Shown here piece by piece: positions 465 to 38,104 of a stretch of DNA of 44,002 nt. Location: positions 1-44,002 of the IMG/VR virus record IMGVR_UViG_3300025132_000081; one strand, written 5' to 3'. The notes under the pieces are model-generated. The model did no database searches, was not told the DNA's origin, and saw nothing but the letters and a program-made list of their open reading frames with translations. Numbering within the stretch: the first letter of the stretch is position 1; each line of letters starts with the position of its first letter. Position numbers and translations under genes: made by a program. The DNA is from a virus.

Positions 465-1412
465 ATGACTGACTTAACCGTGGTTGAATGCAACCAACTG
501 AATAAATGTGAAGAGATTATTGAAGAGGGATTGCAGACGTTTGTAGACGTTGGGCGTGCTCTTCAGATCGTTCGTGAGGGTAAACTGTATCGCACGAAGT
601 TTTCTACGTTTGAAGATTACTGCCAGCACCGTTGGCAATTCACCAAGCAGCACGCAAACCGTCTGATCAAAGCATCTGAGACTGTGGCCATTCTTGATGA
701 GAATCCTGGCGTGGAAACTTTGCCATCGAAAGAACGGCAGGTACGCCCACTAAATAAGCTCCACAAAGACGACCGAGCTGATGCATGGAACCAAGCGCTT
801 GAAGAGACGGACGGTAAGCCCACCGAGAAGGACGTACAGTCGGTCGTAGACCGCCGAAAGCCAACGATAGGGATGGATGGTCCCGCCGACTGGTATACGC
901 CGTCTAAGTACGCTGAGATGGCTCGTGAGGTCATGGGCCAAATCGACTTGGATCCGGCTTCTTGTGCATCAGCCAATAACGTCATCGGCGCTACTACCTA
1001 CTACTCAATTGCCGAAGGGCGTGATGGCCTGCGTGAACCTTGGATGGGCAAGATCTTTTTAAACCCACCCTACGGGCGCAAAGTGATTCAAGAGTGGATC
1101 GACAAGGCTTATGACGAGTGGGCTTCAGGAAGCTGTGAAGAGATTATTATTTGCGTCAACAACGCAACGGACACGGGTTGGTTTGCAAAGCTTTGGGAGT
1201 TCAGCCTGTGTTTTGTCAGAGGTCGCATAAAGTTTTACGGACCTCACAATAAAACCGACAGCCCAGCTCACGGCACCGTCTTTGCCTATCTTGGGGAGAA
1301 GAATGAAAAATTTGCTGAAGTGTTCAAATCAATCGGAGCCGTCATCGAGTGGGACAGCCCAAACGAAGAGGAAAGCCTGTCGCTCGACAGAAAGCTGCAC
1401 TACCAAGAATGA
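465..1412 (+). CDS. DNA N6-adenine methyltransferase (phage Dam type) with N-terminal ParB-like domain
   Basis: 315 aa. The C-terminal half (from about residue 140) matches the phage Dam family: WYTPSKYAEMAREVMG, then DLDPAS, then the catalytic FLNPPYG with NPPY at residues 200-203, which methylates the amino group of adenine using S-adenosylmethionine. The N-terminal 130 residues (ALQIVREGKLYR, TFEDYCQHRW, RPLNKL) resemble the helix-turn-helix region often found on plasmid and phage ParB-like or DUF3102-like proteins and may supply DNA binding. It probably protects phage DNA from host restriction or marks it for regulation. The stop overlaps the start of the cytosine methyltransferase as ATGA, so the two are probably translationally coupled. 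The recognition sequence cannot be read from the protein. Confidence 0.88.
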   Translation: MTDLTVVECNQLNKCEEIIEEGLQTFVDVGRALQIVREGKLYRTKFSTFEDYCQHRWQFTKQHANRLIKASETVAILDENPGVETLPSKERQVRPLNKLHKDDRADAWNQALEETDGKPTEKDVQSVVDRRKPTIGMDGPADWYTPSKYAEMAREVMGQIDLDPASCASANNVIGATTYYSIAEGRDGLREPWMGKIFLNPPYGRKVIQEWIDKAYDEWASGSCEEIIICVNNATDTGWFAKLWEFSLCFVRGRIKFYGPHNKTDSPAHGTVFAYLGEKNEKFAEVFKSIGAVIEWDSPNEEESLSLDRKLHYQE

Positions 1413-2200
1413 TTGTGACAAGTGCATTTTCAGGAATCGGCGGAATCGATCTCGGCTTAAGTGCGGCGATACCGGAAGCGGAGATTCGTTATCAGGTGGA
1501 GATCGATCCGTACTGCCGAAAGGTACTCGAAAAACATTGGCCGAAAGCGACCAGGTACAATGACATCCAAACAGTTAAGCCTGCTGACATCGAAGGAACA
1601 ACCTGCATCATCGCAGGAGTCCCTTGCCAAGACACCTCAGTTGCGTCACCCACGGGTTCCGGCCTGGAAGGGGCGCGTTCCGGTCTTTGGCGGGAAATCA
1701 AAAGGCTCATTCGCACAGTTCCTACCGTGCAATCGCTCATCGTGGAAAACGTTCCAGGCCTGCTTAGTCGAGGGCTGGGAACCATTCTTGGAGACATTCA
1801 CGAAAGCGGGTTTTCTTACGCAGAATGGGATTGTCTCAGCTCGGCAGCCATCGGGGCTTGCCACAGACGTGATCGAATCTGGATTATCGCAACCCGCGAT
1901 ACTCCCAAAGGGTACGACCAGAGTGATTGGGACAGACAGTGCAGGGATGCTGCCCACCCCATGTCACAGGGACTTTCGCAGCGGGAAGGGCTGGGTAGAC
2001 CATGGGCGTTCTCCGCTATTGCCAGAGGCACTGGGTGGGACACTGAACCCAGCGTTTGTGCGTTGGATGATGGGCTACCCGGAAGATTGGTTAATCGACG
2101 AGCCGCTATAAAGGCGCTCGGAAACAGCGTGCAGCCACAGGTTGCATATTTCGTGGGTCTAAGACTCAAATATTTAATGAAGGAAGCAAGTGATGTCTAA
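1409..2200 (+). CDS. DNA (cytosine-5) methyltransferase
   Basis: 263 aa from an ATG that overlaps the Dam stop (ATGA); a longer open frame from 1349 has no better start. Ordered C5-methyltransferase motifs are present: I FSGIGG (7-12), IV GVPCQDTS with catalytic Cys73, VI ENVPG (113-117), VIII RRDRIWIIA (153-161), and X KALGNSVQPQVA (235-246). The target-recognition region is short. The segment WDTEPSVCALDDGLPGR (210-226) matches the EPxVxxxxDGxPxR signature seen in many phage C5 enzymes. A second open frame over the same DNA encodes a different C5-methyltransferase signature (see findings). With the adenine methyltransferase it likely forms an anti-restriction pair. Confidence 0.9.
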   Translation: MIVTSAFSGIGGIDLGLSAAIPEAEIRYQVEIDPYCRKVLEKHWPKATRYNDIQTVKPADIEGTTCIIAGVPCQDTSVASPTGSGLEGARSGLWREIKRLIRTVPTVQSLIVENVPGLLSRGLGTILGDIHESGFSYAEWDCLSSAAIGACHRRDRIWIIATRDTPKGYDQSDWDRQCRDAAHPMSQGLSQREGLGRPWAFSAIARGTGWDTEPSVCALDDGLPGRLVNRRAAIKALGNSVQPQVAYFVGLRLKYLMKEASDV

Positions 2201-3523: not shown

Positions 3524-4178
3524 TTACGCGAAAATAACACTCGATGCTGTGCTATCTGAAAACAGTGATTACAGTAACCCAAGAAGTAAATTGCAAACGA
3601 CACACACACTCACGCCTAGCGCTCACGTCCATCAAAAAATTAACGTGCTGACGACGGGCAGTACCCTGCTGGATTTTATCCCGTATAATTTTGCATCTGT
3701 TGATATGATTATTATTCACAACACAGACACTGCAAATTACGTGACTGCAAAATGGTTAGCGTTGGTTCACAACACCGCTAGCATCACTAATCCAGGAAGC
3801 ACTGGTTTTACGTTTGACGGTGGTGCAGGAACCATCACAGACAACACAAGTGGTTCTAAGTTCAGTCAGGTTGCAATTGGTGACTACGTTCATAACAACA
3901 ACGCGACGCATGATAATAACAGGTCTAAAACAATGTTGGTTAAAGATGTGCCGAGCGCACACCAAATCACGGTAGTGACTTCTTTGACCAATAGCACCAA
4001 CGATACGGCTGTAAGTTTTACGATTGTTCGTGAAAACCACCAACGTATTCCGCCCGGTGGTATTCTGACAATTCCAGGGAACATTTTAACCGATACTGTC
4101 ACTGCCGCTGGCAATGAAATGCAGTTGATTGCTGACACGAAAACGGCAGCATGCAATCTTGTGTTCTTAGGTACCTAG
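3516..4178 (+). CDS. beta-rich virion-like protein
   Basis: 220 aa with almost no helix-forming stretches, many Thr, Asn, Ser and Gly residues, and strand-like alternation throughout. A middle module (about residues 95-175: FDGGAGTITDNTSGSKF, then IGDYV, then ITVVTSLTN) resembles the inserted beta module in the nozzle protein (TNGSTAITEGSSTAF, then VGDRITIG, then ALTLTSTFTG). The C-terminus (RIPPGGILTIPGN) looks like a receptor-binding or baseplate beta sandwich. A virion decoration or fibre-associated role is inferred; no family was recognised. It is the last plus-strand gene and shares a CTAG tetramer tail-to-tail with the endolysin gene. Confidence 0.72.
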   Translation: MADYAKITLDAVLSENSDYSNPRSKLQTTHTLTPSAHVHQKINVLTTGSTLLDFIPYNFASVDMIIIHNTDTANYVTAKWLALVHNTASITNPGSTGFTFDGGAGTITDNTSGSKFSQVAIGDYVHNNNATHDNNRSKTMLVKDVPSAHQITVVTSLTNSTNDTAVSFTIVRENHQRIPPGGILTIPGNILTDTVTAAGNEMQLIADTKTAACNLVFLGT

Positions 4179-4759
4179 AACTGCCACTCTTCTAGCAGCG
4201 TGTAGGTGAAGCGGTCAAAACCGGTTACCTCGATGCTCTTATCAATCAGGCCCATAAAGAAGTTAAAATCGTTAGCGCGTCTGACTACAGTACAACCGGC
4301 AGAATACGCACCAATTTCGTTCATGACTTTAGTCGGGTGGGCTTTGTGAATGTTGATCCCAAATAGGCCTGCCTCGCTTGGTGAGCCCCAAGTGTCCATG
4401 TGCTGGTCCCTGTTAGCATCTCTCCAGACAACCACGGGCCTGCATTGCACCAACGATGGGTAACGTCCTTTGTGAAGGCCTTTCTCAAACGCACCCCGGT
4501 ATTGCCCTGGGTAGAGGATTGCAGTGCCCTTAACGTTAAGCACACGCTTATTCAGATAAAACAATCCAGGGTCCACAGTGCATTCAAAGTAATGGCTATT
4601 CCAAAGAGCACCCCGCTTATAAAAAACGGCCAGGTGGTCATCCCATTTCCCCGGTTTGCCATTTCTTTTCCTCACTCCAACGATGTTTAAGTTGTAGTCA
4701 CCACGCTCAAAGACTGTGTAGCCCTTGCTCTTCATGTGTTGCAGGGTAGGGGGTAACAT
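4175..4759 (-). CDS. L,D-transpeptidase-like endolysin
   Basis: 194 aa. The active-site pattern of YkuD-type enzymes is visible: a His in GINIHKAH (His138) followed by YSAGCTVVR with Cys156 and Arg160. Known L,D-transpeptidases act on meso-diaminopimelate peptides of peptidoglycan, and phage versions in this position are likely lytic cysteine peptidases. No signal peptide or membrane segment is seen, so it would need the neighbouring holin to reach the wall. The start ATG overlaps the stop of the frameshift extension (TGATG), with GAGG a few bases upstream inside that reading frame. Downstream it meets the plus-strand gene tail to tail. Catalytic class is fairly sure; bond specificity is not. 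Confidence 0.75.
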   Translation of the reverse strand: MLPPTLQHMKSKGYTVFERGDYNLNIVGVRKRNGKPGKWDDHLAVFYKRGALWNSHYFECTVDPGLFYLNKRVLNVKGTAILYPGQYRGAFEKGLHKGRYPSLVQCRPVVVWRDANRDQHMDTWGSPSEAGLFGINIHKAHPTKVMNEIGAYSAGCTVVRRANDFNFFMGLIDKSIEVTGFDRFTYTLLEEWQF

Positions 4760-4977
4760 CAGAACCTCATCTTGAAACCGGCCATAGCTTGCCAGTCTTG
4801 GGTGCTGGCGAATTCACCGGATGCAAAAGCAACAACGTCATCTGCTACGTTGAAAGCAAGATTGCCAACACCCCTGGTAACATCGTTACGACGAGCAGCA
4901 CCAAGAGACAGATTGAGCGTGTTTTTTTGAATCGCCGATGCTTTTGCGAGTTGGCTTGTGACGGCACCGGCTATTCC
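4759..4977 (-). CDS. -1 frame extension of the holin-like protein (candidate programmed frameshift product)
   Basis: An open frame of 72 codons lies directly after the slippery site in the -1 frame. Between the slippery site and its stop it contains no ATG, GTG or TTG except two ATGs in the last eight codons (MAGFKMRF), so independent initiation is unlikely. Read through by a -1 shift it would give a 148-residue fusion (76 residues of the holin-like protein plus 72). The extension has a helical start (VTSQLAKASAI), then alternating strand-like residues and a terminal Phe, as in outer-membrane beta strands. Its stop overlaps the endolysin start as TGATG. Function unknown; it could be a longer holin, an antiholin or a spanin-like component. 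Confidence 0.6.
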   Translation of the reverse strand, partial: GIAGAVTSQLAKASAIQKNTLNLSLGAARRNDVTRGVGNLAFNVADDVVAFASGEFASTQDWQAMAGFKMRF

Positions 4978-5204
4978 TTTTTTGCGATTTCTCGGGCCGC
5001 TTGAACCTGGGCAGCTCCGATAGCTTCTCGGCCCTTCACCAAACTGCGGCCCATAGTGTAAGATCCACCACAGCAAGCGGCCAACAGTCCTCCCACTATG
5101 GTTGTCCATTGGCTGTCGCCGAACACACCAGAGGCTAATAAAATTCCACCGCACACACCGATTAAAGTGATGACCATCTCCGACGTTTTGATTCCAGGCT
5201 TCAT
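4971..5204 (-). CDS. holin-like membrane protein
   Basis: 77 aa with two hydrophobic segments (about residues 10-28, MVITLIGVCGGILLASGVF, and 33-50, WTTIVGGLLAACCGGSYTM), a short acidic turn between them (GDSQ) and a charged C-terminal helix ending REIAKKE. This two-span layout with the N-terminal MKPGIKTSE is common among small phage holin-like proteins. It lies beside the endolysin gene, which supports a role in forming membrane lesions at lysis. The start overlaps the upstream stop as ATGA. A slippery heptamer near the 3' end may yield a longer second form. Confidence 0.7.
   Translation of the reverse strand: MKPGIKTSEMVITLIGVCGGILLASGVFGDSQWTTIVGGLLAACCGGSYTMGRSLVKGREAIGAAQVQAAREIAKKE
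4977..4983 (-). promoter_or_regulatory. A AAA AAG slippery heptamer (-1 ribosomal frameshift site)
   Basis: On the minus strand the holin-like frame reads GCA AAA AAG GAA TAG, so the heptamer A AAA AAG is in the X XXY YYZ phase needed for -1 slippage and sits one sense codon before the stop. This is the same heptamer used in E. coli dnaX. No clear downstream stem was worked out by eye. Confidence 0.6.
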
Positions 5205-5488
5205 TTATTCATTTCCCTTCGCACTTCATCTCTGGCCTCGCTGCGAGCAATATACACACGGACCTGTTCCCTAAATTCACACACATCTCGATGTAAGACT
5301 TTAAGCTTATCGCGCATCTCCGACACGTCTTCAGTCAGTTCTTGAAGTTTGTGTTCACAAAGGCGCAGGCGGTCGTATGCCGTCCCGCCATTGCTTTTTG
5401 CTTTGTGTTGTTTGACTGCTTGGATAAGTGCGTAGATTGCACCGATTAGTCCGGCGGTGCCGCCACTCTGAATCAGTGCATCTTCCAT
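5201..5488 (-). CDS. membrane-anchored coiled-coil protein of the lysis group (Rz-like candidate)
   Basis: 95 aa: one hydrophobic N-terminal segment (about residues 8-25, SGGTAGLIGAIYALIQAV), then a long charged coiled coil (about 40-90, with LCEHKLQELTEDVSEMRDKL). One anchor followed by a periplasmic-length coiled coil is the layout of an inner-membrane spanin, although such phage proteins are also called holin-associated. No separate outer-membrane lipoprotein spanin was found, so the spanin reading is uncertain. It is coupled to the holin-like gene by an ATGA overlap. Confidence 0.65.
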   Translation of the reverse strand: MEDALIQSGGTAGLIGAIYALIQAVKQHKAKSNGGTAYDRLRLCEHKLQELTEDVSEMRDKLKVLHRDVCEFREQVRVYIARSEARDEVRREMNK

Positions 5489-36622: not shown

Positions 36623-38104
36623 ATGGGTAAGGAAGCAAGTAAAAAAGGCAAGAACCGCCTTCTGTTCACAGAAGCGTGGTTAAAGAAGGTTAACGCCAAC
36701 AAGGTCGCTACGTATAGTGACATTGGCTGTAAGGGGCTTCTTCTTCGTGTTGCTAAACCCCGCAAGGGACACACCGCAAAGTCGCGTCGCAAGTTTATTT
36801 TTAAACGGCACGTCGCAGGCTCACCTGTCGAAACAACAATCGGCAGTCACAGCGACGTGACTTTAGATCAAGCGCGGGAAACCTGCACACGTCTTCGTGC
36901 GGGAGATAAGCAAACTGATATCTCGGCAACAGTTAACACCTGGTCAAAAAATGGGGCCTTTACTGTTAAAGAAGCTATTGCCGATTACTGGGAAGATTGC
37001 GAGGCGAGGCTTTCGAGCGGAAGTTTGGCAACCTACAAGTCACAGCTAAAGCATTTTGAATATCTGCACGAGCTGCCTGTTCAAGAGGTAACTTTTGCGG
37101 TTGTTGATAAGCTGGTGGCTAAAATCTACGCATATCGTAAAAGAAACGGTGAGCCGTACGCTCAGTACGTCGTGGGGCAGATCTACAAGTTCTTCGAGCG
37201 AACGCTCGTACATGCGAAAAAGAAGACAAAAAAACTCGACCGTAATTTTGCTTGGCCGTTTGACGAAAAAGGAATCCATGGGGCCATTGTGCAGGCTGAA
37301 AGTGTTTATTCGTGGCCTGAGTTCTGGCGTCTGTGGCAGTGGAGCCCAGCTTACTGGCGCAATGCTAAACGTCTGCGACGGGGCTCTACAATGACCGCAA
37401 ACGGGTTCAGATGGAAGCAACGATACACGGAAGAGAAACGTGCAATCCGTTTGCTCATGCTCACAGCGTGTCGTGCAAAAGAGATAGCCAGCTTGACGTG
37501 GGGTGAGTTCAAAGTGAATGGCGCGATGAACATGCGTTCCGGAGACATGGAACCTGCGCTTATTCTTTCGGCTAAACGGACCAAGAAGCGCAAACCATTT
37601 GTCGTGCCGCTTCATAGTGCAGCGTTGAACATTATCTCAGCGCAATACAAAGAATACGGCCCGTTTAAGCCTGGGGACCGGCTTTTTCCATCCATTCCGC
37701 ATAAAACGAATTATTTATACAAAGTGGCCAAGAAAAGGGGAGGTTTTACTAATCACATCCACGACATTCGTAGGACTGTCGCAACGATGTACGCAGCCTG
37801 TGGGGGCTCTGAGTCTTTGGTCGACTCATTGTTATCTCACGGAAAAAAAACGTCTGGAAAGGCGTATAATAAATATCAATATTTTACTGAGAAATTTGAA
37901 CTAACAAAATTTTATAATCAAATGTTAATGGCCGCACTAGCCCGTGGCGCAGAGCACGACGCTGATAGTTCTTTTGAAGCCGAGTGCGAGGATGAAATAA
38001 AAAATGTCATTAGTGAGCACAATAGACACAACAACAATAAACGGATCCATCAAGGAGCCCGTTTTGCTCTGCCGAGCAAAGGTAGCGAAGAGATTAGGCT
38101 TTAG
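36623..38104 (+). CDS. int: phage integrase (tyrosine recombinase, P4/DUF4102 type)
   Basis: 493 aa, with GAGG 6-9 bases before the ATG. The N-terminal part (GCKGLLLRVAKPRKG, KFIFKRHV, IGSHSDVTLDQARE) is the arm-binding DUF4102-like domain of P4-type integrases; a core-binding domain follows (about 110-205). Catalytic residues: Arg284 (TACRAKEI), a Lys in LSAKRTKKRK (318-324), His380 and Arg383 (HDIRRTVAT), His406 (LSHGKKT) and a Tyr at 415-420. It would join the phage to the host chromosome. A GGAAGCAA copy lies inside codons 3-6. Its last 101 bases overlap the excisionase gene. Confidence 0.92.
   Translation: MGKEASKKGKNRLLFTEAWLKKVNANKVATYSDIGCKGLLLRVAKPRKGHTAKSRRKFIFKRHVAGSPVETTIGSHSDVTLDQARETCTRLRAGDKQTDISATVNTWSKNGAFTVKEAIADYWEDCEARLSSGSLATYKSQLKHFEYLHELPVQEVTFAVVDKLVAKIYAYRKRNGEPYAQYVVGQIYKFFERTLVHAKKKTKKLDRNFAWPFDEKGIHGAIVQAESVYSWPEFWRLWQWSPAYWRNAKRLRRGSTMTANGFRWKQRYTEEKRAIRLLMLTACRAKEIASLTWGEFKVNGAMNMRSGDMEPALILSAKRTKKRKPFVVPLHSAALNIISAQYKEYGPFKPGDRLFPSIPHKTNYLYKVAKKRGGFTNHIHDIRRTVATMYAACGGSESLVDSLLSHGKKTSGKAYNKYQYFTEKFELTKFYNQMLMAALARGAEHDADSSFEAECEDEIKNVISEHNRHNNNKRIHQGARFALPSKGSEEIRL

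Follow-up and report, generated by a model that had tools for sequence, protein, structure and literature searches.

Programmed frameshifting in dsDNA phages is best known from tail-assembly genes. A lysis cassette in the uncultured virus record IMGVR_UViG_3300025132_000081 raises the question of whether a holin-like gene may also be extended in this way, and what the longer product would do. The window, that is, the whole stretch of 44,002 nt that was analysed, carries the entire feature on its minus strand. The short form is encoded by the 77 codons of the holin-like gene at 4971..5204(-), which closes with a TAG stop at 4973-4971(-). A first-pass annotation, made from the letters of the window, had read the 3' end of this frame as GCA AAA AAG GAA TAG and placed the heptamer A AAA AAG in the correct phase one codon ahead of the stop. 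Both readings hold, the heptamer lying at 4977..4983(-), in the X XXY YYZ phase. The -1 frame, described there as open for 72 codons without a usable start before the last eight, occupies 4759..4977(-); its codons run from 4977 to 4762, followed by TGA at 4761-4759(-), and its first ATG, GTG or TTG is 0-based codon 64. As also annotated, this TGA and the start of the ORF that follows (4759-4175(-)) overlap in the motif TGATG, and joining the frames by a shift gives a predicted product of 148 residues (76 + 72; 5204-4759) that ends in Phe. What the annotation overlooked is a small gene nested in the 0-frame at 4845..4967(-), with a GTG start, 40 residues and one predicted span (MPSQANSQKHRRFKKTRSICLLVLLVVTMLPGVLAILLST); the comparison presented below indicates that the stretch is dual-coding.

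The short form had been credited with two membrane spans, and these are predicted at residues 11-27 and 36-52, the second being weakly hydrophobic (hydropathy 1.0-1.5). The charge pattern, positive at the N-terminus, negative in the loop and positive at the C-terminus, predicts that both ends of the holin part lie in the cytoplasm. Like a holin, the product is a small predicted membrane protein adjoining an endolysin-like gene. Its match to Pfam Phage_holin_10 (E 0.00098, 19.5 bits) is below the 27-bit cut-off, and we name the gene holin-like because no holin family matched above the cut-off. The next gene in the cassette, at 4175..4759(-), encodes an endolysin-like protein of 194 residues that matches phrog_3000 (E 4.9e-29) and phrog_33083, annotated as endolysin (E 5.9e-12). 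The upstream neighbour in the cassette (5201..5488(-), 95 residues) combines an N-terminal membrane span with a coiled coil, and its counterpart in one relative weakly matches XhlA (E 0.0028, below the cut-off). Among the relatives, two unrelated types of murein hydrolase alternate downstream of the extension, one matching Peptidase_M15_3 in several relatives and the other resembling phrog_3000/phrog_33083 and having no Pfam match, as is seen when L002, L006 and L055 are compared with the window, L058 and L064.

When IMG/VR was scanned with the 148-residue product, 15 loci matched on both sides of the junction, in two frames that differ by -1, and all 15 have AAAAAAG there in identical phase. 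The set was enlarged by profile and single-sequence scans and identical copies were removed, leaving 45 non-identical loci with a complete holin and extension, all of them on contigs of uncultured origin. As scan queries, a holin alignment (A3) was dropped because it was too diverse, and a hand-made consensus-like holin sequence returned known contigs only.

Every one of the 45 loci carries a single in-phase X XXA AAG heptamer near the end of the holin frame, with the 0-frame stop one to seven codons beyond it. The heptamer is A AAA AAG in 28 loci, G GGA AAG in 16 and C CCA AAG in one, three types given as highly shift-prone in E. coli in a review (PMC5009743). The extension's tree implies at least five switches of type by well-supported branches, and most simply eight in all, each to another shift-prone heptamer of the same set; the heptamer is never lost. 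When the same holin ends are recoded at random with synonymous codons, X XXA AAG arises in an average of 5.4% of cases; within the holin bodies, 3245 codons hold 6 slippery heptamers in phase. Since the observed frequency is 45/45, the junction heptamer is more than a product of chance, and the pattern indicates that it is conserved in function, beyond mere sequence.

The first-pass annotation had proposed that a programmed -1 frameshift yields a short and a long product, to be checked at the junction in related phages, and had named a separate extension gene or a lost heptamer as observations that would count against it. The heptamer and the -1 frame are kept in 45/45 loci, and neither a separate extension gene nor a loss of the heptamer occurs in any relative examined. 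An in-frame fusion of holin and extension was looked for in every relative and none was found. The length of the -1 frame is held at 68-76 codons throughout (45/45), and in codons 41-72 of 21 A/G-group sequences its pN/pS is 0.20-0.32 at a pS of 0.60-0.80, from which the -1 frame is judged to be under protein-level selection. Together with the stimulator-like elements and the missing independent start described below, this comparison strongly supports the proposal, and we consider the frameshift almost certainly real. A separate observation concerns loci in which near-identical extensions stand behind holins that differ in heptamer and C-terminus (L036 and L037 against L006-L010; L064; L054/L055 against L053 and L057-L062). 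These look as if holin and extension had been swapped by recombination at the junction with the -1 relation retained.

AlphaFold2, run with two alignments (pLDDT 79), models the extension as a helix (residues 2-14) followed by four strands (21-30, 33-45, 48-57 and 61/63-70). Residues F51, W62 and G67 are invariant, and the C-terminal residue is Trp or Phe in 45/45 loci, Phe in the window; a terminal aromatic residue suits an outer-membrane beta signal. In a Foldseek search of the PDB, the top five matches are the membrane anchors of the trimeric autotransporters Hia, AtaA and YadA (best E 4e-3), and among viral structure models the named top matches are mostly YadA-like C-terminal anchors. VIA-align gives a Z of 7.1 to Hia, to be read against 6.3 for unrelated methyltransferases. 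One member's extension matches the C-terminus of the PHROG 17426 adhesin. Pfam YadA_anchor matched none of 31 members, and a PDB sequence search with the extension profile returned only an antibody chain (E 0.83). Because the fold statistics are modest and the Pfam match is lacking, we term the extension anchor-like and do not assign it to the class. On this modelling, the extension is probably an anchor-like outer-membrane domain. A Pfam CM_1 match to the extension was set aside as chance (E 0.01, below the cut-off, in 1 of 31 members), and a guess that the gene beside the holin and endolysin of phiEco32 is YadA-like was dropped, as Pfam gives Gp10_C.

We propose that about 450 bases of this lysis cassette would encode three membrane proteins. 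Most ribosomes would reach the holin stop and produce the two-span holin. At X XXA AAG, a fraction would slip back by one base and continue into the -1 domain of 68-76 residues, whose helix, four strands and terminal Trp or Phe would resemble one third of a trimeric autotransporter anchor. Three copies of the long form could then assemble a 12-strand barrel in the outer membrane, so that the long form would tie the inner-membrane holin to the outer membrane and help to break the latter in the final step of lysis, much as a spanin does. Ribosomes that terminate at the holin stop may restart 6 nt downstream and yield a small single-span protein. The coding frames, the heptamer and the stop-to-start distance in this model come from the comparison and the anchor-like fold from modelling; the trimer, its insertion into the outer membrane and the spanin-like role are what we infer. 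We regard the complete explanation, comprising holin, shifted holin-anchor with a spanin-like role and restart protein, as evenly balanced between right and wrong, and the spanin-like function of the long form as a nearly even call that falls slightly on the doubtful side.

A simple lipobox scan of the window's lysis region turned up no candidate for a lipoprotein o-spanin, which is what makes a spanin-like role of the long form attractive. The anchor reading assumes that the host has an outer membrane. It also faces the difficulty that the predicted C-in topology of the holin would place the extension on the wrong side for the outer membrane; the C-terminus may cross by way of the weakly hydrophobic second span, or the domain may enter through the holin lesion. 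In addition, the linker is short for an undisturbed periplasm. The first-pass annotation took the purpose of the shift to be holin timing. This finds no particular support, as the model of the extension resembles an outer-membrane anchor and thus points to an envelope-spanning or outer-membrane role.

The topology also gives the main rival its strength. Here the frameshift is equally real, and the long form would be an antiholin-like regulator whose added domain stays in the cytoplasm or alters the topology of the holin and so delays triggering, possibly in cooperation with the nested protein. Positive-inside charges predict just such an N-in/C-in holin part, and short and long holins made from one gene are an established timing device in lambda (S105/S107). 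A tail that serves timing, however, needs no conserved beta domain, and the extension retains F51, W62, G67 and the terminal Trp or Phe and finds its best matches among outer-membrane anchors. We therefore hold an antiholin-like role to be unlikely, though it is the chief competitor of the anchor model.

The nested 0-frame gene opens with an ATG or GTG whose distance from the holin stop is exactly 6 nt in all 45 loci, independently of the distance between heptamer and stop, and the ORF encodes 36-64 residues with one strong membrane span and, in most groups, a basic N-terminus. The window protein likewise has a basic N-terminus, and its span has a hydropathy of 2.88. In the 21 A/G-group sequences, synonymous variation of the extension frame is 0.23-0.40 in codons 1-40, the part shared with the nested ORF, against 0.60-0.80 in codons 41-72; frame 0 has a pN/pS near 0.5 for codons 1-30 and higher than 1 for codons 31-60. 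With random synonymous codons in the extension, a start, opening and span of this kind arise in an average of 1.2% of cases, as compared with 45/45 observed. Because synonymous variation drops in the overlap and because recoding so rarely creates the nested ORF, we conclude that both frames are coding, and the nested gene is in all likelihood real. A Shine-Dalgarno-like sequence precedes it in most loci; in the window this is AAGGA (4972..4981(-), predicted -5.6 kcal/mol), which overlaps the 3' end of the heptamer. The constant stop-to-start distance suggests translation by restart after termination, and the single-span build of the product is compatible with an antiholin or an accessory holin.

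These data bear directly on the possibility that only the nested gene is functional, with the -1 frame as its shadow and the heptamer as a by-product of a ribosome-binding site and Lys codons. Such a reading would gain from the good support for the nested gene and from the overlap of its Shine-Dalgarno sequence with the heptamer in group A. It leaves unexplained, however, why conservation of the -1 frame extends some 30 codons past the point where that of the nested gene ends (pN/pS 0.20-0.32), and why the heptamer persists in groups B, G and C, where the Shine-Dalgarno sequence stands apart from it; moreover, neither G GGA AAG nor C CCA AAG consists of Lys-Lys codons. The comparison thus largely refutes a shadow frame, which we consider highly improbable.

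No better placed is the view that the extension is a separate, translationally coupled gene with its own start. Some groups do have a GTG, TTG or ATG at extension codons 4-9 or 19, which would serve this purpose, but the position is not conserved. L053 has no ATG, GTG or TTG start anywhere in the extension, and in L059, L060, L062, L064 and the window the first one comes late, at 0-based codon 58-68. With starts absent or found only near the end, several members cannot start the extension independently. An independent start would also leave the conserved, interchangeable heptamers without explanation, and we find it very hard to uphold. Least credible of all is an artefact or event at the A run itself (a sequencing or assembly error, a frameshift mutation or transcriptional slippage), for although the window site is a run of six A, the same -1 relation in 45 non-identical contigs refutes a sequencing error, 17 of the 45 sites read G GGA AAG or C CCA AAG and so offer no homopolymer for transcriptional slippage, which is rejected on that ground, and the downstream 0-frame is itself constrained.

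Candidate stimulators of the shift accompany the heptamer in different forms. In group A, to which the window belongs, a hairpin predicted by RNA folding begins 5 nt past the heptamer (in the window 4934..4971(-), GCCGGTGC ... GCATCGGC; MFE -16.1, z -1.68); most of 8 sequences retain it, and all changes in it are one-sided, none compensatory. Another hairpin, at almost the same spacing, is predicted in group B, where one member has two pairs changed on both sides. Groups G and C instead share a GGAGG located 13 nt upstream of the heptamer, comparable to the dnaX element, with a predicted anti-Shine-Dalgarno pairing of about -9.5 kcal/mol; RNAalifold gave no convincing local hairpin for group C, and three G-group members folded singly did no better than shuffled sequences. 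The hairpins and GGAGG are consistent with stimulation but do not prove it, since the stretch downstream of the heptamer is also dual-coding.

The proposed arrangement resembles that of the lambda G/G-T tail genes and of E. coli dnaX, which yield a short and a long product by a -1 shift at G GGA AAG (the site of lambda G-T) or A AAA AAG and which use an upstream Shine-Dalgarno-like sequence or a downstream hairpin, elements that are candidates only in the present loci. As in phage tail-assembly frameshifts, the heptamer type varies among relatives while position and phase are kept. Unlike in lambda G/G-T and dnaX, the shift here would take place in a holin-like gene within a lysis cassette, models of the extension resemble an outer-membrane anchor, and a frame-0 gene is nested within it. 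The two forms recall lambda S105/S107 in that one gene would give two holin-type products; they would differ at the C-terminus through a frameshift, however, and not at the N-terminus through a second start.

With the T1 u-spanin gp11 and lambda Rz/Rz1, the long form would share the property of a lysis-cassette protein expected to bridge the inner and outer membranes. It would do so by a C-terminal beta barrel instead of a lipoprotein N-terminus, with a two-span holin part and by way of a frameshift. In the window, its N-terminus is the non-lipoprotein one of the holin and the extension has no C-terminal membrane helix, and for this reason we do not class it as a u-spanin, although it may work like one. 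Rz/Rz1 provides a further parallel, an out-of-frame gene nested in the same DNA (PMC6139136). The predicted extension agrees with the YadA, Hia and AtaA anchors in its helix and four strands, its length of about 70 residues and its C-terminal aromatic residue, and differs from them in being attached to a holin, without passenger, cleavable signal peptide or Pfam YadA_anchor match.

The phage genes that PRFect names as known to contain a frameshift include lysins; the lysin concerned, which we know through that citation, is an endolysin and not a holin. Our search of the open-access literature, mainly of titles and abstracts, found no report of a frameshifted holin gene. The survey of spanins (PMC6139136) gives 91 of 677 phages as having none reported, and a frame-shifted beta-barrel extension is of the kind that standard gene callers would miss, which makes it a concrete search target in phages that appear to be spanin-less. 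Should the long form reach the outer membrane, it would represent a type of spanin without a lipoprotein; the scheme as a whole, if true, would be a novel route by which a phage assembles the proteins that burst its host. We tentatively suggest a Gram-negative lysis unit of a new kind, in which the shift gives both a holin and a holin-borne trimeric barrel anchor that replaces lipoprotein spanins, a third protein arises by restart, and the slip rate sets the ratio of hole-maker to envelope-linker. The locus is also a compact instance of three predicted products with two overlapping frames in which constraint can be measured directly.

No close cultured phage was found. In tblastn searches of cultured phages with the fused protein, the window's query had no match and that of group C returned noise only (E = 8). 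The window's portal has no match among cultured phages and its terminase only distant ones. Neither the extension nor the terminase had a relative among genome contigs, and a host assignment was obtained from neither. An integrase gene is present at 36623-38104(+) (phrog_1, E 4.6e-27). With this integrase and a portal without cultured match, the window phage is, by its gene content, a temperate-like member of a divergent lineage. Elsewhere in the window are two DNA-methyltransferase-like genes, of which 465-1412(+) matches the phrog_111 DNA methyltransferase and 1349-2200(+) was judged by eye only. Finally, a second run, CAA AAA AAC (A AAA AAC type), is located at 4921-4929(-) in the -1 frame, inside the extension, and is phased for a further -1 shift.
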